Source of the DNA: Candidatus Poribacteria bacterium
Lineage (GTDB): Bacteria; Poribacteria; WGA-4E; PCPOR2b
DNA length: 64,000 nucleotides
NCBI GenBank assembly: GCA_022826645.1
Contig: JAJDUM010000100.1
Span: 1-64,000 of the forward strand
Reading direction: 5' to 3'
Shown here: positions 149 to 54,378 of the stretch, in pieces
How the letters are laid out: every line of letters begins with the position of its first letter
Numbering within the stretch: position 1 is the first letter of the stretch
Translations under genes and position numbers: made by a program
The notes under the pieces: generated by a model
Seen by the model: only the letters and a program-made list of their open reading frames with translations
Told to the model about the DNA's origin: nothing
Database searches by the model: none

Positions 149-1753
149 TTACTCGTTATTCTTCGCGTGATGATCCCGCTCCAGAAAAGTATTGCCCCAA
201 GCACTTGTACCTTTGAGGGCTCCATCCTTGAAAATTGCTGGGCCATCCAACATCTTCTCTTCCTCGCCGTAGGCTTTGAGGCGGTCATACGCCCTTGCCC
301 AGATGCAGTCCTTCTCCCCAATTTCGCATTTGCCCTGACGGGTGCCGCCGCACGGTCCGTTGCGCTGGTTTTTCACGCACTGCGATTCGGGACACAGATA
401 CGCGATATCGGGCAATGAGCAGTCGCCGCAGTCGCGACAATCAAAGCCAGTAACCTTAACCGCTTGTTCCGCACCGTGTATGACTTTCTTTACCGCCTCG
501 CTTGCCCCGTCGACTGCCTGAGAGATCCGCTTGCCGATTGTGAATCCCAAGCTGCCTTTTTCAAAAACCTGATCGTGCACCGTGCGATTAATCTTATAAC
601 TCAGGGGAATTTCCCCTTTGGCAGCTTTCAAGGCTTCTGGCCGTTTTGAAAAGAGATACTGACGGCTAATCTCGGTTGAACTGAGCCCGGTCTCCGGTTC
701 CGGTTCAAAAAGGTAAAATTCGTCGGGGTAATGGAAACAGATCTCCTTTGCGAAGTCCTTCCAATCGTCTTCTCCAAAACGGTTTACCATGTTCAGGATT
801 CGCTCATAGTCCCTGTAGCGTATATGACCTCCTAAATACGCGCCTCGATAGCCTAATCCTTTGGCGATAGCACACTGCTTGGCAGCAAATTCCAAAAAGA
901 AGGCTTTGCCTTTATCCTTCGATTTTGCCTCTTTTTCGGCTAAGTTCAGTAACTCATCGGTTACGGTTACACCGGGGATGTTGCCCTTGTTGAAGAAGCG
1001 AGCGACTGCACGGTTTAGGACGTAAACGTTGCCAATTACTGGCACATGTAGGTCCTGGGTCGCCATATACTTCAACAGTTCATCCTGTTTGCGAGAGTCG
1101 TAACCGATCTGATTAATGATAAACGCAGCACCGTTCTCAATTTTCTTTTTTAGCTTGAAGTACTGCGGCATAACCTCGCGTTCATAGCGTTTGTGGTTGT
1201 TGACCACCGCACCCAAGAAGAAATTGGTGCGTTCGAGCACCTGTGCTCTTTTCCCTGTCCCGACCTCCATGCCGGCGTTCATGTCAGCGAACATCTTCAA
1301 CAATCCCACCGAGTCGGTATCAAACACGGGGCTTGCTTGACCACTATAACCGTCGATAGGATAATCGCCAGACAAAGCTAAGATATTGTGAAACCCTTCA
1401 CTCGCAAGCTGCCAAGCCCGGCTCTGAAGCGCGTTTCTGTTCCAGTCCTTGCAGGAAAGGTGGATAATCACTTCCTGATCGCGGGAGAGGAGATCCCGTC
1501 CCAAGGTGTCGGGACCGATCATGGCGTTACCACCCGGATTGTCGGTAATGCTCAAGCCATGTATGCGCGGATTGTCCCCCAATTGTTGTGCCAACTCCAA
1601 TACCTGGCGTCCGTCGGGATCGGTAACAGTTCCACGCGAGGTGACCACTTCCACACAGGTAAGAAATGTATCTGTCTCCTGAAGCAGATAGCGCAGAGAG
1701 GATTTTTGTGAAGCGTCAAGGTCAGGGGTCGTTTCGGTGGGGGATGTGTTCAT
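149..1753 (-). CDS. metF: Methylenetetrahydrofolate reductase with fused C-terminal cysteine-rich domain
   Basis: A 534-residue protein. The N-terminal two thirds is a MetF TIM barrel that interconverts 5-methyl-THF and 5,10-methylene-THF with a flavin. The last ~110 residues carry a cysteine cluster (CRDCGDCSLPD, then LCPESQC, GPCGG, GKCE) typical of the MTHFR C-terminal domain. In acetogens the related MetV protein is a separate subunit and binds metal or Fe-S. It is the last gene of a minus-strand run with a corrinoid protein, an MtaA-like methyltransferase and a RACo-like activator, 102 bases after the PhyH gene. That context suggests catabolic oxidation of corrinoid-derived methyl groups rather than methionine synthesis. 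The start at 1753 has only a weak ribosome site. Confidence 0.87.
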   Translation of the reverse strand: MNTSPTETTPDLDASQKSSLRYLLQETDTFLTCVEVVTSRGTVTDPDGRQVLELAQQLGDNPRIHGLSITDNPGGNAMIGPDTLGRDLLSRDQEVIIHLSCKDWNRNALQSRAWQLASEGFHNILALSGDYPIDGYSGQASPVFDTDSVGLLKMFADMNAGMEVGTGKRAQVLERTNFFLGAVVNNHKRYEREVMPQYFKLKKKIENGAAFIINQIGYDSRKQDELLKYMATQDLHVPVIGNVYVLNRAVARFFNKGNIPGVTVTDELLNLAEKEAKSKDKGKAFFLEFAAKQCAIAKGLGYRGAYLGGHIRYRDYERILNMVNRFGEDDWKDFAKEICFHYPDEFYLFEPEPETGLSSTEISRQYLFSKRPEALKAAKGEIPLSYKINRTVHDQVFEKGSLGFTIGKRISQAVDGASEAVKKVIHGAEQAVKVTGFDCRDCGDCSLPDIAYLCPESQCVKNQRNGPCGGTRQGKCEIGEKDCIWARAYDRLKAYGEEEKMLDGPAIFKDGALKGTSAWGNTFLERDHHAKNNE

Positions 1754-1855
1754 GGCTGTGGGCTCGCTTGGATATGTGTGGGTTTAGAAATTCTTAGGTA
1801 AAATCGTTGATATTTTGAAAATCACAGTTATTTTGGTGTGGATAGTTCCATAACC

Positions 1856-2653
1856 TCACACAAACAGCGGTGTCGGCTTTGGAGGTCCAAAACCGAGTTC
1901 CACCAACCTTGAGACCATTCGTCGGAGTCGGGGACGGTCACTGTTGACCATTTCTTCTGGTGGATGTAGTGAATAGTTCCAGCCATCGTATAGTCCCTTT
2001 ATGTAGGCGACCTGTTCTTCTGTTACAGGGTTTGCCATGAAACTGATGGCGTGTTGGGAGCGTCCCGGTGGACCGCCGAACGCACCGTGCCATAGCGATT
2101 CTGGAAAGACTATGACATCGCCGGGCTGCGATTCGATAACAACGCTGGGAACGTCCGCACCTGCCACCCCGAACGGCATCGCAGTCGGATCTTCCTGCTG
2201 GGCGGTCAACGGCTGAATTAGTCTCCTAAATTCTAACTTATGAGATCCCGGAATGAAACGCAGTGCCCCTGTCTCTTTGGTGTTCGGCTCAAGATAGAAC
2301 GCGATCTTGATATGTGGCACCGGTTCCATATCAAGCCCACCACCGTGCCACTGTGTATCGCCGACGTGGAGGTTTCCCTCGGTAGCGTTCAGGATGAAGT
2401 CAGGTCCGAGGAGGTCTTCTCCTAGCCCGTAGATGCGGTCGTCCTCAATGAGCCATTGGAGCCGAGGGTTCAACTCAAAGAACGGGATCATGGCTTGCCG
2501 CTCCTCTCCGGGGAACGGTTTGCCTTGGCGATTTTCTTGTAACGTCGCATCGGACTCACGGCGGATGACATCAATTTCCTGCGGCGTAAAGAGCTGGCGC
2601 AGGACAAGGAAACCAAAGGTCTCAAAGTGCTGCTTCTGTTGAGCCGTTAGCAT
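1856..2653 (-). CDS. PhyH-family Fe/2OG-oxygenase-like protein with HxG in place of HxD
   Basis: A 265-residue phytanoyl-CoA dioxygenase-like protein. The frame opens at 2677, but the ATG at 2653 is preceded by AAAGGGGG and is the likely start. The PhyH fold is clear: the ETGALRFIPGSHK strand, the distal H189 (LWHGAF) and the 2-oxoglutarate-binding R198. Normal members have H-x-D as the first two iron ligands. Here the motif is W-H103-G-G105, read from cac-ggt-ggt, so the Asp is Gly. This is the only PhyH in the window without HQD. HxG or HxA is the facial-dyad state of SyrB2/WelO5-type halogenases, where halide takes the Asp site, but loss of activity is equally possible. The gene lies 41 bases after the RACo-like gene in the corrinoid operon, an unusual place for a PhyH. 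Confidence 0.85.
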   Translation of the reverse strand: MLTAQQKQHFETFGFLVLRQLFTPQEIDVIRRESDATLQENRQGKPFPGEERQAMIPFFELNPRLQWLIEDDRIYGLGEDLLGPDFILNATEGNLHVGDTQWHGGGLDMEPVPHIKIAFYLEPNTKETGALRFIPGSHKLEFRRLIQPLTAQQEDPTAMPFGVAGADVPSVVIESQPGDVIVFPESLWHGAFGGPPGRSQHAISFMANPVTEEQVAYIKGLYDGWNYSLHPPEEMVNSDRPRLRRMVSRLVELGFGPPKPTPLFV

Positions 2654-2694
2654 GTTGCCCCCTTTATCCGTCCACAATCGGATACCCTTACTGG

Positions 2695-4644
2695 TTAGGA
2701 ACTATTTTCGACAAAATCCGTTGGCATCGGTTTAAACTGACAGCCCTCGACAAACACTTCAAAGAAGTCGGCGGTTGTCTCCAATTCTACATGTTCAATC
2801 CCTTTGACCAAACGCTCGATATCTTCACGTTTCTTTCGTGAGAGGAGCACCTCCTTCGCGCCTTGCACCGCAGCGTTGCCGATCTTAACAATGCGATCCT
2901 CGGCTACCGGTGCCAAGAATCCGATATCAATAGCGTTATGAACATCTACGTAATTGGCGAAGCCACCCGCCAAATAGAGGCGACTCACGTCCGCCGGATT
3001 GATGCCAAATTTTCGCATGACGATGAACTGACCGCAGTAATTGGCAGCTTTCGCTTGAGCGAGATTGCTGGCATCTTCACGAGAGAAGGTGATGCCGTGC
3101 TCCGGGACGATCGGTATCTCACGTGTTTTTCTGTCCCCGAATACACCCATTTCAGTCATCCGCCCATGGCGACGGAGTTCTGCTAACAGATCTATTAAGC
3201 CGGAACCACAGATTCCTTGGGGTTCAACACCACCGATTGTACTATACTCAATCTGATCGTCCTTCCAACGGATTGACTCTATGGCTTCATCATAGCCCGG
3301 CATCCCGTACTTGATACCACCGCCCTCAAAAGCGGGACCCGCCGGACAGGAAGCTGCGATTAAACGCTCCGGATGCCCGACCACCACCTCGGTATTGGTC
3401 CCGACATCAACCAACATAACGACCTCTTTTTGAGATGCTATATCCAGTGCCACGAGATCCGCTGCGACATCGGCACCGACATGGCTGCCGATCAACGGAA
3501 GCCCATACACCCGTGCCTTGGGGTTGGCTCGAATCCCAAGTCGGCGCGTCTTCTCAACCAGCGAAGTGGTTTCACGCTCACCCGCGCGATATTGACCCTC
3601 GATTATCGATTGGTAAGGCTTTTGACCGATGCTCTGCACATCCAACTTAAAGAAGATGTCCCGCATCGTTGAGTTTCCGACCACAACAATCTCGTAAATT
3701 TCTTGACGGACGAACCCTAACTGCTTCCCCATTTCTTGGATTTCGTGGTTGAGCGCGTTGATGACCGACCAGCGCAACTCCCCGCTAAACTCTCCATCAT
3801 ACGAAATGCGGTGCATAATATCGCTGCCGCCGAATCGCTGTGGGTTTTCAAAGGAACTGACGTGGACGCTCTCGCCGGTCTCCAGATTGACCAAATCAAT
3901 GACTACGGTTGTTGTGCCGAGGTCAATCGCCAAACCGTAGATATGACCGCGATATTTGTCAACTGCCTCATCCTCATAGTAGACTATATCATCGCGTCGG
4001 GTCACTAACGGATCTATTTGGAGCGGTTTTTCGTGCGTGTGGGTAAGGATCTTGGGGGTACGTCGTACCGGCGCGAACGCGATATCGACATCGGGGTCCT
4101 TGACCACCGCTTGGCAGGCGAGTCGATAGTTCTCCCGCAAAAACGACTCAGCTTCGTTCCGCGGTCGCAACGCCTCCATCCCCTCTTTAATCTCCACAAT
4201 GCACTCATGACACTGTCCGGTACGGAAGCAGGAGGTCGGCACCTGAACCGCGAGCTCATCGGCATAATCGAAAATGGTCTTCCCGGCTGCGAGCGGATGT
4301 TTTTTGCCGTCGTACGTTACTGTTCCCTTACCGTAGCTTGCCTCACTTTCGATGAAAGCCCCTTCAGCAGTCTCGGTTTCCCACGCAGTCCGATAGTCTA
4401 TCTTATCGTCTCCACCACACAGCAGCAATTCTTCCTTCGGCGTATTGCGACCACTGTCCTGCTTGCCAGCCAAGCCAGCATTAGGTGGTTTCCGCTGGTT
4501 TCGACACCCAAACTTAGCCGTACATTGATCGAAGCGGTTCTTGTAAGGGCATCGATGCATAGATTGTTCGTCGGCATGGGCGACCATGCTTGAGAACAAC
4601 TCTGATATTTTGTCCAGACGTTCTTGATATTCTTTTTTGCTCAT
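2695..4644 (-). CDS. RACo-like reductive activator of corrinoid protein (2Fe-2S ferredoxin plus ASKHA ATPase)
   Basis: A 649-residue protein of the RACo/DUF4445 family, which uses ATP to return inactive Co(II) corrinoid proteins to Co(I). Residues ~1-85 form an extension with extra cysteines (C32, C41, C47). Residues ~105-185 are a plant-type 2Fe-2S ferredoxin with a C-x5-C-x2-C cluster (SCFRTGQCHEC) and a distal CQ. From ~235 onward is the ASKHA ATPase-like fold, with the phosphate-1 motif DLGTTTVVIDL, VDVGTNTEVV and a late LAGGFANYVDV loop. It lies 51 bases after the corrinoid-protein gene, its expected substrate. The start at 4644 has AAAGG about 10 bases upstream. The N-terminal cysteine extension is not part of the core RACo architecture and could hold another metal centre. 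Confidence 0.87.
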   Translation of the reverse strand: MSKKEYQERLDKISELFSSMVAHADEQSMHRCPYKNRFDQCTAKFGCRNQRKPPNAGLAGKQDSGRNTPKEELLLCGGDDKIDYRTAWETETAEGAFIESEASYGKGTVTYDGKKHPLAAGKTIFDYADELAVQVPTSCFRTGQCHECIVEIKEGMEALRPRNEAESFLRENYRLACQAVVKDPDVDIAFAPVRRTPKILTHTHEKPLQIDPLVTRRDDIVYYEDEAVDKYRGHIYGLAIDLGTTTVVIDLVNLETGESVHVSSFENPQRFGGSDIMHRISYDGEFSGELRWSVINALNHEIQEMGKQLGFVRQEIYEIVVVGNSTMRDIFFKLDVQSIGQKPYQSIIEGQYRAGERETTSLVEKTRRLGIRANPKARVYGLPLIGSHVGADVAADLVALDIASQKEVVMLVDVGTNTEVVVGHPERLIAASCPAGPAFEGGGIKYGMPGYDEAIESIRWKDDQIEYSTIGGVEPQGICGSGLIDLLAELRRHGRMTEMGVFGDRKTREIPIVPEHGITFSREDASNLAQAKAANYCGQFIVMRKFGINPADVSRLYLAGGFANYVDVHNAIDIGFLAPVAEDRIVKIGNAAVQGAKEVLLSRKKREDIERLVKGIEHVELETTADFFEVFVEGCQFKPMPTDFVENSS

Positions 4645-4695: not shown

Positions 4696-5463
4696 TTATT
4701 CCTCGTCCCAGTCCTCGTCCTCTTCTTCAAGGAATTTCTTTGCCAGTGCCACACACTCAAGGGCGTCCTTACCGTAGCCGTCCGCCCCCATGTCATCAGC
4801 GAACTCTTGGGTCACCGGGGCACCACCCACCATAATCTTAACCTCTTCCCGGAGATCTTCATCAATGAAGGCTTCGATTGTTTTGCCCATATTCGGCATC
4901 GTTGTGGTGAGCAACGCCGACATTCCGAGTACAGGCGCCTCATGCTCCTCCACTGCTTCAATGAACTCGTCGTCCGAGGTGTCCACACCCAAGTCATGAA
5001 CGACGAATCCTGCTCCCCGCAACATCATAATGCACAGGTTTTTACCGATGTCATGGAGATCGCCCTTCACCGTTCCCATAATCACAGTGCCAATGGGGTC
5101 AATGCCGGAGGCAGATAGGATAGGTTCAATATATGCCATCCCAGCTTTCATTGCGCGTGCACAGGCGAGGACTTCCGGGACGAAGATAAAGTTCTCTCGA
5201 AACTTGATCCCAACAATCCCCATCCCTGCGATCAGGCCGTCATCCATGATTTCGAGTGCTTCGGTGCCCGCTTCCAAAGCAGCTTTGGTCAACTCATCCA
5301 CACTGTCATTGTCTCCGTCGATGAGTGCTGCGGCGATGTCTTGCATCTCAGGGGCCGCTTTGGCAAAGATGTTAATGGTGCGCTCCCGTTCGTCAGGACG
5401 CTCAATAAACTCCTCAATCTCGTCTACAATAATTTCATTTTGGATGTCAGTAATTTCTGCCAT
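4696..5463 (-). CDS. Corrinoid (B12-binding) methyltransferase carrier protein, MtbC/MttC-like
   Basis: A 255-residue cobalamin carrier. An N-terminal helical cap (~30-110) precedes a Rossmann-like B12-binding domain with the cobalt-ligand motif G-D-L-H-D-I-G and the usual downstream SALLTTTMPNM. Such proteins take a methyl group from a substrate methyltransferase and hand it to a second one. The frame opens at 5499, but the ATG at 5463 follows GGAG at a good distance and leaves an 11-base gap after the MtaA-like gene rather than an overlap, so 5463 is chosen. The acidic C-terminus (EEEDEDWDEE) is unusual for the family. In chloromethane degraders the CmuA protein fuses this domain to an MtaA-like domain. 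Here the two are separate adjacent genes. Confidence 0.9.
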   Translation of the reverse strand: MAEITDIQNEIIVDEIEEFIERPDERERTINIFAKAAPEMQDIAAALIDGDNDSVDELTKAALEAGTEALEIMDDGLIAGMGIVGIKFRENFIFVPEVLACARAMKAGMAYIEPILSASGIDPIGTVIMGTVKGDLHDIGKNLCIMMLRGAGFVVHDLGVDTSDDEFIEAVEEHEAPVLGMSALLTTTMPNMGKTIEAFIDEDLREEVKIMVGGAPVTQEFADDMGADGYGKDALECVALAKKFLEEEDEDWDEE

Positions 5464-5474
5464 AGTGTTCTCCG

Positions 5475-6524
5475 CTAATTCACATGTTCCTTGTGCCAAT
5501 CCTGCACCGCCATGGGGATCTCTTTGAGGTTTTCAATAGCAGTTTGCAGCGGAATTGCACACTCTGGGCCGACAAGGTGTACGCCGGATTCCAGATTCTT
5601 GTAGACTTCACCACGAACCTCCTCTGGACCCTTTGAGAAGAGTGTCTCCGGGTTGTTAATGTTGCCCACCAGAGAGATTCGTTCCTTCACCACTTCCATA
5701 GATTCACCAGGCTCATTCTTAGAATCGTAGTGGAAGGCTGCCATTCCTGTCTGAGCGATATACTCCATTCTGTCCACCGTCCTCCCGCAAATATGCAGAA
5801 TCAGCGGGATGGGAATCCGATCGACGAACTCGGTGTGCATATCGCGGAGGTAACGCTCATAGTATTCACCGCTGACCAGATCGCCGGTAGCGTGGTCGGG
5901 TAGGGTCAGTGCATCTGCTCCCGCTTCAATCTGTGCGACTCCAAACGCTATCGTGGCTTCCTTCAGTCTATCCAGCGCGAGTTTTGTTTGGCCCGGATCG
6001 TCCAAAGATAGTAGTAAAAAAGGTTCCACGCCGAAACAGTGATAGGCCTGAGACCAAGGTCCCATCGTCTTTCCGATAATAGCGACATCATCGCCGTATT
6101 CCTTCTTGAGAATCTTAATCGCGTCGAGTACGCATTTGGTATCCTGATGGGTCAGATAATCTGACGGGATCTTGATTTCGTCGACATCTTCCCAGATCGG
6201 CTCACGCATTCTAACCGTGGGCCAATTGTCCTTCTGCTCCCATTGAATCTTACACCCGAGCGCAGAGGATTCTTGGATAATCGTGAAAACGGGCATAATC
6301 GTATCGAAACCTAACTCGGTATACCCGGTAGCGGCTAAACGTGCCATCAACTCAGGTTGCCGGTTCGCTTCCGGGAACGGTGCGTCCACTAAGTCCATCA
6401 GTTCTACTGTGGCGACAGACGTTGGGTTGCAGGTTGGTGTTCTGTCCACAGGTTCTCGCTTCAACGCTGCCAATACCCGTTCTTTGCCGGTCATCGGTCC
6501 GACTGTTTGTTGTTCGGTTCCCAT
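5475..6524 (-). CDS. MtaA/CmuA-like uroporphyrinogen-decarboxylase-fold methyltransferase
   Basis: A 349-residue protein of the URO-D superfamily branch that contains MtaA, MtbA and the N-terminal half of CmuA. It opens with the family signature GKERVLAALKREPVDRTP. It has the zinc-ligand pair H-x-C (ILHICGRT, near residue 245) and a later Cys in GPECAIP, consistent with a zinc-dependent methyl transferase rather than haem biosynthesis. The ribosome site AGGAGG lies 6 bases before the ATG, and the upstream gene ends 9 bases away. It is immediately followed by the corrinoid protein gene, its probable partner. The methyl donor or acceptor cannot be told from sequence. No MtrH/CmuB-type methyl-THF transferase is present in the window. 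Confidence 0.87.
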   Translation of the reverse strand: MGTEQQTVGPMTGKERVLAALKREPVDRTPTCNPTSVATVELMDLVDAPFPEANRQPELMARLAATGYTELGFDTIMPVFTIIQESSALGCKIQWEQKDNWPTVRMREPIWEDVDEIKIPSDYLTHQDTKCVLDAIKILKKEYGDDVAIIGKTMGPWSQAYHCFGVEPFLLLSLDDPGQTKLALDRLKEATIAFGVAQIEAGADALTLPDHATGDLVSGEYYERYLRDMHTEFVDRIPIPLILHICGRTVDRMEYIAQTGMAAFHYDSKNEPGESMEVVKERISLVGNINNPETLFSKGPEEVRGEVYKNLESGVHLVGPECAIPLQTAIENLKEIPMAVQDWHKEHVN

Positions 6525-6533
6525 ATTTTCCTC

Positions 6534-7169
6534 CTAATTCTGTTGGCTTGGGGCTGCGAGGATGCCGCGTGCGGCTGCCATCTCCTGTTCTCGCACAATG
6601 GCTCGCACGTTCGGGGCACGAACAAGCAGCAACCCGATGAGTGCGTCGTGGGAGTGGCCACACGGAAACGCGACCTTGTCGAGGGTTCCCTCCACCTCTT
6701 CCATCTCTCCCAATTTCATTAAACCGCCAGCAATCGCGGAGATGCGTCTGTCGGCGCGTCTGCCCTCACCATCAGCCTTCACTTGGTAAATCCCCTCTCC
6801 GAGACTATCAACCGTGATGGTCAGCCCCGATTTTTTATCCAAAACCTGTAAGGGACGTGGTTCTACCGAATCGTTCGGGGAGAACTTGCACGACTCTAGA
6901 AAAATTCGCCTGCAAGCGAGTTGGTGTCCTGACCCACAGGGGAACTGGAGCATCCCGTTCGCAGTCACAACCAGGTTTCCCAAGCGCGTCATCGCTTCGA
7001 TCGCAAACTGAATACGCTCTTGAGCCCCTTCCATCTGGCTGTAAGTATGCACTAAGAACAGGGGGCTCTCATCCGGTCCCTGTTGGTACAGGGCAATCGT
7101 TATGTCGTGGAAATGAGGGTCCATCGGGACCAATTCAATACGTTTTCCAATATCGACTGTTTGACCCAT
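6534..7169 (-). CDS. Unknown protein, first gene of corrinoid operon, paired FPCG motifs
   Basis: A 211-residue protein that I do not recognise. It is probably soluble: no signal peptide or membrane segment is seen. Two similar Cys/His motifs stand out, FPCGSGHQLACRR near residue 77 and FPCGHSHDALIGLLL near 168, each an FPCG followed within 2-3 residues by His. They suggest an internal duplication or a pseudo-symmetric metal site. A second Cys (ESC) follows the first motif. The gene is the promoter-proximal member of the operon and has a strong GAGGAGG ribosome site. It directly precedes the MtaA-like gene, so a role in methyl transfer (substrate subunit, metal delivery or control) is an inference from position only. 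Confidence 0.75.
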   Translation of the reverse strand: MGQTVDIGKRIELVPMDPHFHDITIALYQQGPDESPLFLVHTYSQMEGAQERIQFAIEAMTRLGNLVVTANGMLQFPCGSGHQLACRRIFLESCKFSPNDSVEPRPLQVLDKKSGLTITVDSLGEGIYQVKADGEGRRADRRISAIAGGLMKLGEMEEVEGTLDKVAFPCGHSHDALIGLLLVRAPNVRAIVREQEMAAARGILAAPSQQN

Positions 7170-7250: not shown

Positions 7251-7330
7251 AGTTAATGGTCTGACCTTTGCGGCATAAGTTTAACTCAAAACTAGGAAAT
7301 TGTAAAGCGAAATTTTTGTTGTCGTATATT

Positions 7331-8065
7331 ATGAAAACGCAAGAACAAGAAAAATTGGCGATGAAGGAGATGAAGCCTGATGCCCGCACCTCTCTGAGTG
7401 ATGGAATTGTGGAGCAGGTCGTTGACTTGATCTCTCGGGATGTGCTGAAACCCGGAGACCGGTTGCCTTCTGAGCGGGAATTGTGTAAGCGGTTAGGCGT
7501 GGGACGAAGCTCCCTAAGGGAGGCTTTGCGTTCCCTCGCTGTCATGGGAATAATAGACGGACGGGTCGGAGATGGCACCTTTGTTTCTAACAGTAATAAA
7601 CGGTATCTGGAGAAAACGCTGCAATGGGGGCTGCTGCTCGACCGAAAAAGGGTTCAAGACCTTATCGAAACTCGGCTTATGTTAGAATCCCAAACGGCGT
7701 TTTTGGCTGCGCAGCGAGTCACACCTGAGAATATTGAGGCAATCGAGGAGACCTTGCGGGGGATGGAAGCCTCGATCGCGCAGCCTGATAAGTACTTGGA
7801 ATTCGATTTGCAATTTCACCTGACCATCGCACGGGCAACGCAAAATTCGATACTCTACAGCCTCTTGAGCATGATACGGGGGTATCTGCAAGAGTGGATT
7901 AAGGGGAGTCTCGCTGAGTCATCGACAGGTGAGAAGACGCGGGCGGAATTGTCCTTACTGGAACATCAGAAAATCCTTGATGCCCTCCGAAAAGGGGAAG
8001 CGAATCAGGCGCAGCAGGCAATGACGGAACATATTCTTTCCAGTAGCGTTGATCTTCAGAGATAA
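7331..8065 (+). CDS. FadR-subfamily GntR transcriptional regulator
   Basis: A 244-residue repressor/activator. Residues ~17-80 form a GntR winged helix-turn-helix (KPGDRLPSERELCKRLGVGRS, then LREALRSLAVMGIIDGRVGDGTFV). The rest is an all-helical FCD ligand-binding domain with R-x-x-LE (ETRLMLESQ), a D..H pair (LEFDLQFHLTIARAT) and a late EH. FCD domains of this type bind small acids, often through a metal. The frame can be opened upstream by a TTG at 7268, but the promoter would leave almost no leader, so the ATG at 7331 is preferred. No start has a good ribosome site, and 7361 is an alternative. Being divergent from the corrinoid operon, it is the natural candidate for its regulator. Confidence 0.88.
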   Translation: MKTQEQEKLAMKEMKPDARTSLSDGIVEQVVDLISRDVLKPGDRLPSERELCKRLGVGRSSLREALRSLAVMGIIDGRVGDGTFVSNSNKRYLEKTLQWGLLLDRKRVQDLIETRLMLESQTAFLAAQRVTPENIEAIEETLRGMEASIAQPDKYLEFDLQFHLTIARATQNSILYSLLSMIRGYLQEWIKGSLAESSTGEKTRAELSLLEHQKILDALRKGEANQAQQAMTEHILSSSVDLQR

Positions 8066-40485: not shown

Positions 40486-41490
40486 TTACGCCACCCGATA
40501 CTTTTCAATCACAGCCGTGTCCACTGTGATACCAAGCCCTGGACCCTCCGGCACCAGAAAGTGCCCTGCCTTAATTGTTAGTCCTTCTTTAACAACGTCG
40601 GCGACGCGGATGTGGGGCAACTCGTCGCAGGGAAGCGTCGCGCTGGGCAGCGTACATTGCACATGGACGGAATAGGCAGCCATTATACTCAAGCAGAGCC
40701 CCCCTATCTGTACCCAGCAAGGCACATCTGCGGCTTCAGCCAATGCAGCAGATTTGCGTACCTGCTGGGCAGGTCCACCCAAGTTCAGGTAGTCGATGCA
40801 CTCTGCCTTGAGTGCTGCCAGGACGGCGTCCGGAGGTCCCAAGTGTAGTGCTTGGGGGATGTGGGTTTTCTCGCGCAACAGGCGATACCCATCCAAGTTA
40901 TGGGTTAGGATCGGGTCCTCAAAGTTGGCAACCGTTCCGAACGGTTCAAGTTGTTCCGCCAAACGTGCTGCAACGTGTGGGTACTTGAATCCCATGTTTG
41001 GATCCAGGCCGACGGTGTAATCGGGACCTGCTACCTCCTTGATGAGGCGCACCGTTTCCACAACGTCCGCCGCACGTGCCTTGAGTTTATGGTTGGTAAA
41101 CCCTAAACGTGCGCCTACTTCTGCTTCCGCAGCGGTCTCATGCGGTTCCATCGTGGTAGACCAGTAGGAGACTGGTACCTCGTCACGCACCTTCTGACCG
41201 AAAAAGCGGTGAACAGGAATGCCGTACATCTGACCGGTGATATCCAACAAAGCGCAGTCGAACCCATCGGGCTGGGCGAATGGGTCTAATGCCAAGACCT
41301 CCTGATCGAGGTAAGACTGCGCCGTGACCTCGTGTAGAGATCGTGTGCCAAGATACTCTCCCCAGCCTTCAATCCCTTCATCGGTCTGAATGCGGCAGAG
41401 GGTAATGTCGTAGATCTTGGGAACGTATTTAGCAATCGGTGGGATGGGAGGGATTTCTACCTCGTAAAGATCAACTTGTGTGATTTTCAT
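40486..41490 (-). CDS. Enolase-superfamily (mandelate racemase/MLE-like) enzyme
   Basis: A 334-residue enolase-superfamily protein. The N-terminal capping domain precedes a TIM barrel with the K-x-K base pair (NHKLKARA) and metal ligands in VGLDPNMGF and ANFEDPI. The third ligand, normally Glu/Asp in a G-E strand, is not obvious: the site reads LHLGPPDA. The late base region WVQIGGLCLS is present. Function could be racemase, cycloisomerase or sugar-acid dehydratase. AGAGGC precedes the ATG by 7 bases. It lies on the same strand as the C45 peptidase gene, with a 133-base gap holding nested palindromes. Confidence 0.83.
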   Translation of the reverse strand: MKITQVDLYEVEIPPIPPIAKYVPKIYDITLCRIQTDEGIEGWGEYLGTRSLHEVTAQSYLDQEVLALDPFAQPDGFDCALLDITGQMYGIPVHRFFGQKVRDEVPVSYWSTTMEPHETAAEAEVGARLGFTNHKLKARAADVVETVRLIKEVAGPDYTVGLDPNMGFKYPHVAARLAEQLEPFGTVANFEDPILTHNLDGYRLLREKTHIPQALHLGPPDAVLAALKAECIDYLNLGGPAQQVRKSAALAEAADVPCWVQIGGLCLSIMAAYSVHVQCTLPSATLPCDELPHIRVADVVKEGLTIKAGHFLVPEGPGLGITVDTAVIEKYRVA

Positions 41491-41520
41491 CCGTAAGCCT
41501 CTTTTTGAAAGAGTTATTTC

Positions 41521-41597
41521 GCGGGAGTGTTCTTTTGTGCCATCCCGATAAAACCGGGATACTCCCCTCCCGCAAACTAATCCCGATACATCGGGAT
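41521..41597. repeat. Nested inverted repeats between enolase-superfamily and C45 genes
   Basis: GCGGGAG (41521-41527) pairs with CTCCCGC (41567-41573), enclosing ATCCCG/CGGGAT (41542-41560). A second palindrome, ATCCCGAT-AC-ATCGGGAT, lies at 41580-41597. Both inner elements share ATCCCGAT, which suggests a repeated palindromic unit. No T-run follows. Confidence 0.55.
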
Positions 41598-41623
41598 GCT
41601 ACATTTGTCAGATTGCCCAATGA

Positions 41624-42649
41624 TTACAGTTGGATTTCCTGATAGGTGTCTTGGCACGGATTACCATCTACAAACAACACTCGCCGACTCTGTGGGATTC
41701 CAATCATCGAATATTCTGTATGCGAATCATCTGTTCCACCGTGACGGCAGATACTTGGGTCACCGTGATGCTGCAGAATCGCTTGCATGTCGTCCAGACT
41801 GTAGTCAGGCAAATCGGAGAGACTCTGTTCCAGAAAATACTGTCTCGCTTTGGCATTGCATTTCCCGCTTTCGGTACGACGGTCAGCATCAGCGAGCGTC
41901 GGGAGCTGGTAGTAGTTGACGCAGTTCATGTGTCGGGTCTCCGGTGCTGGCTTGCGTATCTGCACGATCGGGCATGGTGCTTCAATGGAACACATCACGC
42001 CATCCGCGTCTACGGCAACGTGACTGTACCCCTTGCCTCGCGTCGGGAGTCGGGACAATCGCCGCACGAATTCCGATGTCGTGCGGCTCTGCATCAGACA
42101 CTCGTAAGCCCAAAGCCGTATCGGGACGAAATCATCGCTCTGTTGGAAAACGCTGCCAACCGAGGAGTGTCCTACCGCTACACCTTCAGCGTTCATACCA
42201 TCGGTGGTCGCTACCATACCGCAGAAGGTAAAAACTGTCGTAGGAATTGCATCGTTTCGGTGGATAACTCGCGCACACGCAGGTCGTCGCTCATCCTTGG
42301 CAAGCCCATCGTTGTTCTTGCCCCAGAGCGGACCATCTTTCCCGTCCTTAAATACGATGTTCGTGCACCCCTCATCAACCACCAGTTCATTCGCGTACAT
42401 CGGGAGATTCAGTTGGAAAACCGTATTGAGGGGGATATCTGCGCCGGCTGCCGTTCCTTCAATTTCCGCGAGAACCGCTGGTAGATAAGTTTTCAGTGTC
42501 TCTAAAAAGCGTGGAAACCGCTGTGCCCAAAGGGTACTGTCAATCTTTGGTGGAAAGAGAGCAAGGTGTTCGCGAATCTCCTCGCGCAACGTCTCACCGG
42601 TGAGGTTACCAATTTCGCGGGGTGAACCTGAGACTTCAATGACTTTCAT
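41624..42649 (-). CDS. C45-family Ntn hydrolase (acyl-CoA:6-APA acyltransferase-like)
   Basis: A 341-residue protein of the peptidase C45 group. The likely catalytic Cys is in VDEGCTNIVF near residue 95. Downstream motifs include GPLWGKNNDG, TVFTFCGMVATTDGMN and AVDADGVMCSIEA, typical of self-processing Ntn hydrolases that cleave at the Cys to expose a nucleophile. Known members hydrolyse or transfer acyl amides. No signal peptide is seen. AAGGAAAT precedes the ATG. Its stop is followed by the palindromes before the enolase-superfamily gene. Substrate unknown. Confidence 0.8.
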   Translation of the reverse strand: MKVIEVSGSPREIGNLTGETLREEIREHLALFPPKIDSTLWAQRFPRFLETLKTYLPAVLAEIEGTAAGADIPLNTVFQLNLPMYANELVVDEGCTNIVFKDGKDGPLWGKNNDGLAKDERRPACARVIHRNDAIPTTVFTFCGMVATTDGMNAEGVAVGHSSVGSVFQQSDDFVPIRLWAYECLMQSRTTSEFVRRLSRLPTRGKGYSHVAVDADGVMCSIEAPCPIVQIRKPAPETRHMNCVNYYQLPTLADADRRTESGKCNAKARQYFLEQSLSDLPDYSLDDMQAILQHHGDPSICRHGGTDDSHTEYSMIGIPQSRRVLFVDGNPCQDTYQEIQL

Positions 42650-42709
42650 GGTATTTCCTTGAGATGAAACATTGAGACTAAAAGGCTCCGCTTTCTCTGC
42701 TGTGGGGGA

Positions 42710-44182
42710 CTAATACGGAGACGCCTGCTGCAGCACAGAAGGGTACGGACCGTATTCTACGATAAGTTCTACTTCGTCCACCCTGAGCGGACTTACCAGT
42801 CCGTGTGCCCTTTTTTCCAGAATAATCTCTAACAGATTCTTGCCCTGTTTCGGCAGCACATCTCTCAGCTGAAATTCCAACCATTGACCGCCGTATGCGT
42901 TGATCTCTGAGCCGTGGGTGCGCAGGCAACTCTCATCCTTCAGGGACCTGTCGTTAAGCCGAATATCCAGTCGGTCGGCGGATACAAGGTCGGTGATGTT
43001 AATCCGGAGGCGGATCTGGCGTATCCGTCCCTTGGAGCCTGCGATATCATCAGCGATGTAAAACGGAATTGGATGCCGCGTCCTAACATCTGAAGCGCCA
43101 ATTTCGAGGGGCAGCGCTGTCGGGTAATGTGTTTTGTCGTCTTTGGCTTGGTGGTTTCGGGCGACAACATAGCACTTGTTTCCCTCATAAACCAGCTCTG
43201 GGTCGCCAAGTTCGGTTAGTATACTACGTTCAGTCTCTCCCAGGGGCCAACGCATGAACCAGGTGTATAAACCGTCAACACCACGTGCCCAGTTGTTCGC
43301 CACAGCCGCCCGCATCTGTTCTGGCGTGGGCCATACTCGTTGCGGTGCACCAGTCGTGGCATCGTGGACATAAGGTTGTAGAATACCGTAGACCGAGGCA
43401 TCTGCATGATGTGCCGTATCAATCAGCCAGTCGATGGGTATGTCGGGATCGAGGATCATGTAGGCATAACGCATCGGAACCGCAAAGTCAAGTAGACCGC
43501 GCTCAAACCACGTCCGCACGTCGAGACCTTGTGACAGGTTCATCTCCTCTGTGGGCAGTACGCGGACGCCAAGATTACACGAATCACCGCGGCGACTTCT
43601 GACCATTTCGGCGATCTGTTCGACATATTCAGTCAGGATAGGTATCATGTCTGGAGCATCCTCATCCCGCAGGATAGCGCTGCCACCCGGAAACGCAAAA
43701 TCCAGTTCCAGTCCTTCGGTAGGATACTCTGTTGCCAATTCCTCCAGCACCGCGAATTAATGGTCGCGCACCTCCTGATGCGCCAAACCTCGACCGCCGT
43801 TCTGGAGCCGATGTACCGGATCCATACCGCCGTGGCCGGGCATACGCAGACTCGCGATGAAATCCAATCCCTTATCGTGCGCTCGATCGATGAGAACCCG
43901 TAACGGATCCAGTCCTCGGTCAATTAAGCTCTGCATGTTGTTCCATGTGCGCCAGTACGCAGCCTGCTCAAAAGGTTGGATGTCTTCCCCAAAGCGCATA
44001 CCAATCTTGGACGGATAGAATAGTCCGTCGCCCCGCTCGACGCCGTAGCAGAACGTATCTACCGCTGTGCCAGCAACTTCGTCAACAGGAACCCAAGCGT
44101 CTTCCAGTGCCATCGGCGGCTCAAAGACGAATAGGTAGTAGTGACGCGCATCGTTCATATAGATGATCCGTTTTTTTCGCAT
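42710..44182 (-). pseudogene. Glycoside-hydrolase-like TIM-barrel protein interrupted by one in-frame TAA
   Basis: One continuous 491-codon frame is broken only by a TAA at 43757-43759. The first part (141 codons from ATG 44182) starts RKKRIIYMNDARHYYLFVFEPP and ends HQEVRDH. The same frame resumes FAVLEELATEYPTEGLELDFAFPGG and continues 340-odd residues to 42710, with a C-terminal beta-sandwich (IRQIRLRINITDL, WLEFQLRDVLP). The total length and the barrel motifs (GLELDFAFPGG, LDFAVPMRYAY) suit a glycosidase-like family (DUF187/glycosyl-hydrolase-10-like). The break falls inside a barrel strand, so the two halves are unlikely to be separate genes. A GTG at 43750 has no ribosome site. Confidence 0.75.
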
Positions 44183-44470
44183 AGGGGAATTTTCCTTTTT
44201 TGTAGAATCTGACTGAATACATCCTAGTCAGCGGAGGATTCTCAGGGTTAGAGTAAATACCATCGTAGCAGAATTTGCCCGCAGTGTCAACGGGAAAGCA
44301 GGGGATACCAAACAGGTAGAAGGACCGTAAACTATTCCCTTTTGGGTTCGTCAAATGGCTGAAGTCAATTGATGTAATATTCTTACGTTGTCTAAAAACA
44401 TCATTCACGAAAATGTCCGAAAACTGGTAGACGATGGGGGGAATCCTTATCGGAAAGGGATCTCGTTTGT

Positions 44471-53343: not shown

Positions 53344-54378
53344 TCAGTCGGCGATTGTAACTTCCTTGCCCCTTTCAGCTGCTTCATACAGCGCATTCAT
53401 CACCCGCTGCACATCGAGCATTTCACTGAACTGAACGATGGGTAGACGGTTATCCAAAACGCTCTGGCAGAAGTCTTGGTAGACGCTATCAAATTGGCTT
53501 GTCGCATCAACGCGGGGCGTAACATCCACAATCTGTTCACCATCTTCCAGCGCAATCCGAAGCGGTCTTAGACTGGCAACTCCCCAATCGCCTAAGATTT
53601 CGGCGCCGCTGGTCCGGGATCGGGGGTGCGTCAGCCAGTTGCTTTCTACCGTCATCGTTGAACCGTCTGCAAAGTGCACTAAACCGACATTGAAGTCTTC
53701 AATGTCGCAGTCTGTCACCGATCCCTGCCACGTAATAGGGGGATTCTTCATCCGGCGCACTTTCTGATAGCTCGCCGCCGAAGCGCGTACCGGTTTCGGA
53801 TTTCCCAATGCCCAGAGGGTTGCATCGAGTAGGTGGACGGTTGTATGGAAAAGCACGCCTCCTCCTGCCAGGTGGCGCTTATACATAGTGGGGGTGCCCG
53901 GGATGTGCATCACATGTCCGTGCCAGAGCCGTGTATGGTAGACACTGCCCAGTTTTCCGTCAGCGAGGAATTGACGCAGCGCGCGTACTTCCGGATTGGA
54001 GCGATTCTGCAAGCCCATTGACATCAGTTTTCCGCAGCGTTTGGCTGCAGCGATCATCTCCTCCGCCTCGGTGAGATTCGTTGCCAACGGTTTGGAGACT
54101 AGCACATTGGTTCCTGCTTCAAAGGCATCTATCGCTGTTTCCCGGTTGGCTGCCGGCGGCAGGGCAAGGCTAACGATGTCCAGCGGGTGACGCTCAAGCA
54201 TTTCACGGTAGTCGGCGTAATGATGTGCAACACCAAATTCAACCGCTGCCTTTTGCGCTCTATCAGGGTTTAGATCTACGACAGCAATGATCTCTGCTTC
54301 GGGAATTTCCGCGTAACTCTGGATGTGTCCTCGTCCATGTGACCCGCAACCGATGATACCAATCTTGAGTTGGCTCAT
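53344..54378 (-). CDS. Gfo/Idh/MocA-family oxidoreductase
   Basis: A 344-residue NAD(P)-dependent sugar oxidoreductase. The Rossmann loop IGIIGCGSHGRGHIQSYA opens it, VSKPLATNLTEAEEM gives the E-K-P region, and GGGVLFHTTVHLLDATLWALG gives the D-x-x-x-H catalytic area. Members oxidise or epimerise sugars, inositol and sugar acids. The ribosome site is AAGG/TAGGAT. It is convergent with the beta-propeller protein gene (14 bases apart). It is probably co-transcribed with the upstream PhyH at 54442, 63 bases away. Confidence 0.88.
   Translation of the reverse strand: MSQLKIGIIGCGSHGRGHIQSYAEIPEAEIIAVVDLNPDRAQKAAVEFGVAHHYADYREMLERHPLDIVSLALPPAANRETAIDAFEAGTNVLVSKPLATNLTEAEEMIAAAKRCGKLMSMGLQNRSNPEVRALRQFLADGKLGSVYHTRLWHGHVMHIPGTPTMYKRHLAGGGVLFHTTVHLLDATLWALGNPKPVRASAASYQKVRRMKNPPITWQGSVTDCDIEDFNVGLVHFADGSTMTVESNWLTHPRSRTSGAEILGDWGVASLRPLRIALEDGEQIVDVTPRVDATSQFDSVYQDFCQSVLDNRLPIVQFSEMLDVQRVMNALYEAAERGKEVTIAD

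Follow-up and report, generated by a model that had tools for sequence, protein, structure and literature searches.

In Fe(II)/2-oxoglutarate oxygenases of the PhyH family two histidines serve as iron ligands and an arginine binds 2-oxoglutarate. One solved enzyme with a PhyH-type fold is the hygromycin B oxygenase HygX (PDB 4xc9, 4xca, 4xcb and 4zpi), and the abstract of the paper on it reportedly speaks of variation in metal coordination. According to passages of PMC8234114, HygX is part of hygromycin B biosynthesis and tied to orthoester formation on sugars. In excerpts of two papers (PMC12816917, PMC13168262) human AspH is described as a natural HXG...H hydroxylase which does not halogenate; the excerpts of the latter state that its D721 forms a hydrogen bond to a water in the carboxylate site and that the D721A variant is substantially less active, and its authors suggest that the site water hinders halide. 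The exchange of the carboxylate for Ala or Gly is named in part of PMC8407142 as the usual halogenase change, and passages of PMC8252765 give HXA/G...H as the motif used in searches for Fe/2OG halogenases. From a study of a BesD homologue (PMC13244439, in excerpt) it emerges that the carboxylate-to-Gly exchange alone is insufficient for efficient halogenation, and according to PMC2767507 prolyl 4-hydroxylase loses its activity when its triad is rearranged.

The protein considered here is encoded in a stretch of 64,000 nucleotides from a bacterium of a sponge-associated kind, analysed as a whole (“the window”) by an ORF spanning 1856..2677 (-), whose ATG at 2653 gives rise to 265 amino acids. 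It matches PF05721 (PhyH) with an E-value of 2.8e-14 and 54.4 bits (gathering cut-off 22), and a Pfam scan at E 0.001 or better returns no family except PhyH, which places it outside the AspH sequence family. Residues 102-106 read W-H-G-G-G, with the codons of H103 and G105 at 2345-2347 and 2339-2341, respectively. Judged from the sequence, membership in PhyH stands while the canonical iron site does not: in the HxD...H...R pattern the Asp is replaced by Gly, whereas both His and the Arg are retained. A profile search finds nine other PhyH domains in the window, all with HQD, which confirms the difference that an earlier, sequence-only reading of this DNA had drawn between W-H103-G-G105 and nine HQD proteins. 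The range given there, 2300-2653, covers the N-terminal part of the gene only (Table 1), and that reading did not mention a second distinctive feature, Glu185 four residues before the distal His (position -4).

Table 1. Coordinates of the PhyH gene, its presumed active-site residues and the neighbouring genes in the window
Feature	Position	Strand	Remarks
PhyH-family Fe(II)/2-oxoglutarate oxygenase, 265 aa, HGG type (clade 1)	1856..2653	(-)	Pfam + motif, AlphaFold2 mean pLDDT 92.8
H103-G104-G105: proximal iron His, Gly at Asp position of PhyH hydroxylases	2339..2347	(-)	
E185: carboxylate, -4 from distal His; may stand in for Asp as ligand or hold a water	2099..2101	(-)	
H189: distal iron His	2087..2089	(-)	present in 36/36 aligned rows
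R198: 2-oxoglutarate-binding Arg (by family homology)	2060..2062	(-)	present in 36/36 aligned rows
MTHFR with C-terminal DUF5981	149..1753	(-)	next gene downstream of PhyH
RACo/RamA-like corrinoid activation protein	2695..4644	(-)	next gene upstream of PhyH
Corrinoid (B12-binding) protein	4696..5499	(-)	
MtaA/CmuA family (UroD fold) methyltransferase	5475..6524	(-)	TIGR01463 254.6 bits vs cut-off 235.4
211-aa protein	6534..7169	(-)	no Pfam or NCBIfam match
Divergent GntR/FCD regulator	7268..8065	(+)	

The protein belongs to a group of 11 genes, designated clade 1, which comprises six poribacterial genes as well as L030, L053, L031, L032 and L047. The poribacterial orthologues occur in six of the nine genomes of the window's family, share 79-100% identity and without exception carry HGG; beyond them, a search of 84 genomes of the phylum at E 1e-60 yielded HxD paralogues only. 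The relatives that bear a name and whose genes share 79-95% identity are MAGs of Poribacteria. L030 (68% identity, HGG) stems from a genome labelled Gemmatimonadetes which falls into the same phylum as Latescibacteria UBA6620. Three clade-1 genes are present in a SAR202 genome, two of which, L031 and L032, have HGP while the more distant L047 has HGG, and L053 (53% identity, HGG) was found in another genome of the same class. At E 1e-90, clade-1 genes were detected in 2 of 393 genomes of this class and in 1 of 64 genomes of the other phylum, that of L030. Among 134 pattern matches examined for viral relatives none was confirmed. The distal His and the Arg, which the sequence-only reading had described as kept, are present in all 11 genes and are surrounded by many invariant columns. 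The 15 pairs among the six poribacterial orthologues give dN/dS values of 0.055-0.104, where the dS of pairs including L028 (1.7-2.3) is near saturation. Since HGG or HGP is retained across the clade and dN/dS lies in this range, the loss of Asp was not random, and decay to a pseudogene is ruled out as well. The question raised earlier of whether orthologues in the same operon share HxG is thus answered by HGG in 6/6. HGG together with E185 is a real, conserved feature. The poribacterial HxD paralogues of the L003 and L002 types, although of equal size and 42-48% identical to the 265-aa protein, differ from clade 1 in having HxD and H, M, Q or V at -4.

Glu occupies position -4 in 11/11 clade-1 genes (E185-x3-H189), while His, Met, Gln or Val is found there in all 25 rows of HxD relatives (23 distinct) and Glu in none. 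A broader view is provided by the genome from which the window derives (6.04 Mb), in which at least 151 PF05721 matches are present, 150 of 251 candidates having been scored. By comparison, one of 14 control genomes gave a match. We surveyed 156 distinct PhyH domains of this genome, collected from PF05721 regions, earlier loci and the window. At face value Asp is present at the HxD position in 142 and absent in 14 of them; L154, whose row was misaligned at first, proved to be HGA, raising the number of domains without Asp to 15. The sequence-only reading is hence right in regarding the motif as unusual within the window, not within the genome. Apart from the 265-aa protein, all non-HxD domains of this genome fall into one further clade (the second clade; SH-aLRT 94), whose 15 rows are L158, L154, L172, L162, L141, L148, L102, L152, L122, L137, L164, L069, L126, L083 and L090. 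All 15 rows carry Glu or Asp at -4 of the distal position, and 14 of them lack HxD. The remaining one, L090 (841-1740, -), combines HGD with Tyr at the position of the distal His and may, by its sequence, be an inactive copy.

In the face-value survey an acid at -4 accompanies 14/14 non-HxD but merely 5/142 HxD domains (Fisher p 3.7e-16, shared ancestry being ignored); the latter five are L154 and L090 of the second clade plus L080, L084 and L111, which are plain HQD. With the trait letters masked, an AU test rejects the union of clade 1 and clade 2 as a single clade (p 1.3e-5), a value obtained with a quick-type tree and for a group named after an earlier tree had been seen, while the test assumes prior naming. 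The same result speaks against one HygX-type clade taking in clade 1 along with the second clade, the latter standing as the HygX-like clade in a tree whose sequences do not include HygX. In the free tree clade 1 groups with HxD relatives (100*) and needs two changes instead of one, although the AU test does not reject clade 1 as one clade (p 0.31). Three independent pairs (starred branches) are available, too few for a sign test; the acid runs opposite to Asp in about two of them and shows no difference in about one, so that Asp loss and acid gain appear to have changed together about twice. Alternatively, the switch may have been gained and then reverted in the HxD relatives. E110 was considered as another place to which the carboxylate might have been relocated and seems the less likely one: Glu is present there in 10/11 clade-1 genes, yet in several HxD relatives an acid stands in the adjacent column, and E110 therefore tracks the loss of Asp less cleanly than E185. 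Literature searches, in which the HxG/E-x3-H pairing was not itself named, turned up no paper on it.

The arrangement found in clade 1 has a counterpart in HygX, which in the printed alignments reads LHGGNSE ... NEALMHG and thus combines HGG with E-x3-H, just as clade 1 does. A PDB search with the single 265-aa sequence ranks HygX first (E 1.1e-4), the stretch pairing E185 with the Glu of HygX reaching E 0.24 on its own. Foldseek, run with the AlphaFold2 model (mean pLDDT 92.8), likewise places HygX first (E 1.8e-12, TM 0.59, 21-23% identity), nearly level with SnoK (2.6e-12) and EctD (4.8e-12), and there is no chlorinating enzyme among the 50 matches listed. The clade-1 profile, however, finds the ectoine hydroxylase EctD (PDB 4mhr) first (3.7e-6), followed by PAHX and GriE before HygX (0.0011, residues 2-76). 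EctD is of the HxD type, the printed alignments showing WHSDFE at the place of WHGG in clade 1. The likeness of clade 1 to HygX is consequently remote and its margin over other solved relatives slight. HygX is distinctly closer to the second clade, whose profile has it as nearest solved relative (E 3.3e-28, compared to 0.0011 for clade 1) and for which it is first in Foldseek too; SyrB2 is also matched by the second-clade profile (7.5e-17). A further parallel exists in AspH, where D721 sits at -4 of H725, i.e. at the same offset as E185 from H189, so that an HXG...H motif with an acid at -4 is common to both. This comparison is based on published residue numbers only, and AspH differs in belonging to another family, in acting on a protein substrate and in using Asp instead of Glu. 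The chlorinating enzymes SyrB2 and CytC3 (TIGR01762), members of a remotely similar fold family, resemble clade 1 in their non-acidic HxD position. Together with L256, the one member of TIGR01762 found in 369 genomes of one class (424.6 bits), they show HQA and Ser at -4 as opposed to Glu in clade 1, the Ser rule being our own and drawn from these three members.

On these grounds it is probable that the 265-aa protein is an active Fe(II)/2-oxoglutarate oxygenase with a reorganised third iron site of the HygX/AspH type. H103 and H189 would bind the iron and R198 the 2-oxoglutarate, while the role of the HxD Asp would pass to E185, which would ligate the iron directly or, like D721 of AspH, act by way of a water held in the vacated site. 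An iron site so arranged is expected to be unfavourable to halide and to promote oxidation or cyclisation of the ordinary kind, perhaps on a sugar-like molecule. The sequence-only reading had raised the possibility of a non-haem iron halogenase, with Gly105 opening the site for chloride, and had made this depend on no other residue filling the Asp site; E185 is now indicated as such a residue at the level of sequence only. A halogenase would agree with the conservation of HxG, with the Ala or Gly that usually replaces the carboxylate in halogenases and with a weak match to TIGR01762. HxG is, however, not diagnostic of a halogenase, as AspH is a hydroxylase of this motif which does not halogenate, and the same arrangement recurs in HygX. 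The match to TIGR01762 amounts to 18.6 bits against a cut-off of 226.3, is confined to residues 2-51 and is surpassed by that of the ectoine hydroxylase model (24.5 bits). Two relatives moreover have Pro at position 105, E185 is present in 11/11 clade-1 genes where the three chlorinating enzymes have Ser, and in the BesD homologue Gly alone did not suffice. Halogenation is thus very unlikely.

We consider it just as improbable that the protein is a pseudo-enzyme, as had also been suggested, or that it binds iron and 2OG only as a non-catalytic partner or sensor. The canonical ligand is indeed lost, and PAHX D177A/G is reported in excerpts of PMC12816917 to be inactive in vitro; yet both His and the Arg persist in all clade-1 genes amidst invariant columns, the dN/dS values are those given above, and two HxG enzymes, AspH and HygX, are active or solved with cosubstrate. 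Somewhat less remote, albeit still unlikely, is an enzyme relying on its two His, in which E185 binds substrate only and the third site holds water, substrate or nothing. That two His can suffice is suggested by FIH, whose Asp-to-Gly variant retains some activity (PMC8252765, in part), and the three HQD proteins L080, L084 and L111 carry an acid at -4 as well. Against this, the acid accompanies the loss of Asp in two clades set apart by the AU test, and the corresponding acid of AspH serves to hold the iron-bound water. A fourth proposal, in which the protein would catalyse a step specific to the corrinoid methyl-transfer pathway, concerns the genomic setting and would be compatible in its chemistry with an E185-based oxygenase. 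It takes support from the position of the PhyH gene, which follows RACo on the same strand in 6/6 genomes and precedes MTHFR in 5/6; in the sixth, G003, the 860 bases 3' of PhyH up to the contig end contain no MTHFR match. The methyltransferase (UroD), however, occurs in 70 of 84 genomes of the phylum at E 1e-80 (one only 48% identical), the HxG PhyH in six. In G007, a genome of the same genus given as 96% complete, the operon is present without PhyH, RACo and MTHFR being about 100 bases apart; G024 is like G007, and in G002 the operon lacks PhyH and, at this place, MTHFR. Unrelated genes, too, are found at the same junction: in L027, L029 and L224 RACo and PhyH are separated by the gene of a 214-235 aa protein, and L027 and L029 also carry, after PhyH, genes for a 312-aa protein and a methylase. 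As all these extra genes are co-oriented, co-orientation with the operon is weak evidence of partnership. Outside Poribacteria, the relatives have other neighbours altogether. The operon partnership implied in the sequence-only reading finds no support in these observations, and a dedicated pathway step is accordingly rather improbable. PhyH is an accessory member of the poribacterial methyl-transfer operon, which occurs without it as well and in which the gene may have been either gained or lost.

Some details of this operon may be added. In relatives it also includes a pterin-binding methyltransferase, which in the present case would lie past the end of the window. Besides PhyH, the RACo/MTHFR junction contains extra genes in L027 (5336-9362), L029 (5363-9343) and L224 (5654-6361), none in the window (1753-2695) and L026, and nothing at all in G007. 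In a Pfam search of the L029 copies only, the methylase matches Eco57I while the other extra genes give no match. At L028 (G003), small ORFs follow PhyH up to the contig end (4592-5455). In L224 (1689-3466, G005) the matches to the methyltransferase and to the corrinoid protein are both split into two pieces that overlap, as frameshifts or errors in the assembly would produce. The 211-aa protein is located near an MtaA/CmuA-type gene in 10/10 loci without PhyH, and it was also found where the stretch showed no match to a corrinoid protein or RACo.

The second clade is present in the phylum of G084 as well, with up to at least 41 matches per genome (about 41 candidates scored per genome). Its 30 best loci there (L226-L255) have Glu at -4 in 30/30 and in 27 cases no Asp at the HxD position, which is occupied by Ser in 21, Thr in three, Asp in three, Gly in two and His in one. 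Three second-clade proteins of this phylum combine HGD with E at -4, and an HSD protein on one of the 30 loci has Asn at -4. It is conceivable, if somewhat short of likely, that PhyH proteins switched repeatedly to a rearranged facial triad H-x-G...E-x3-H with the carboxylate supplied from just before the distal His, and that they form a large unrecognised class of oxygenases, shared by Poribacteria, SAR202 and the phylum of G084 (with Latescibacteria UBA6620), whose members HxG motif searches would misfile as halogenases. The comparison suggests a testable rule, according to which HxG/A with E or D at -4 would denote an oxygenase and HxA with Ser at -4 a SyrB2-type halogenase, BesD and WelO5 being outside the comparison. 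If an acid at -4 does mark non-halogenating HxG enzymes, a single residue separates both classes, and many proteins would be saved from misfiling, considering that one genome may hold 41 or more second-clade matches. The two clades would then also provide natural examples of a moved carboxylate, contrasting with the result obtained for prolyl 4-hydroxylase.

As to the substrate, a carbohydrate-like compound is a possibility which, with few loci to judge from, we put forward with reserve on the basis of HygX and of the gene neighbours outside Poribacteria. L030 has three such neighbours, one from the enolase superfamily, one of the Gfo/Idh type and one GHL10-like (under the Pfam cut-off); L032 is accompanied by an SDR gene and a 25% homologue of this GHL10-like protein, and L031 by a GH32/43-type gene, while enolase-superfamily, DHDPS-family and polysaccharide-deacetylase genes are found at L257. 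Five ORFs scanned around L047 (L258) include no such gene, which does not fit the idea of a sugar. In the window itself, homologues (25-29% identity) of the three L030 neighbours are located at 40495-44227 and 53911-54372, far from PhyH.
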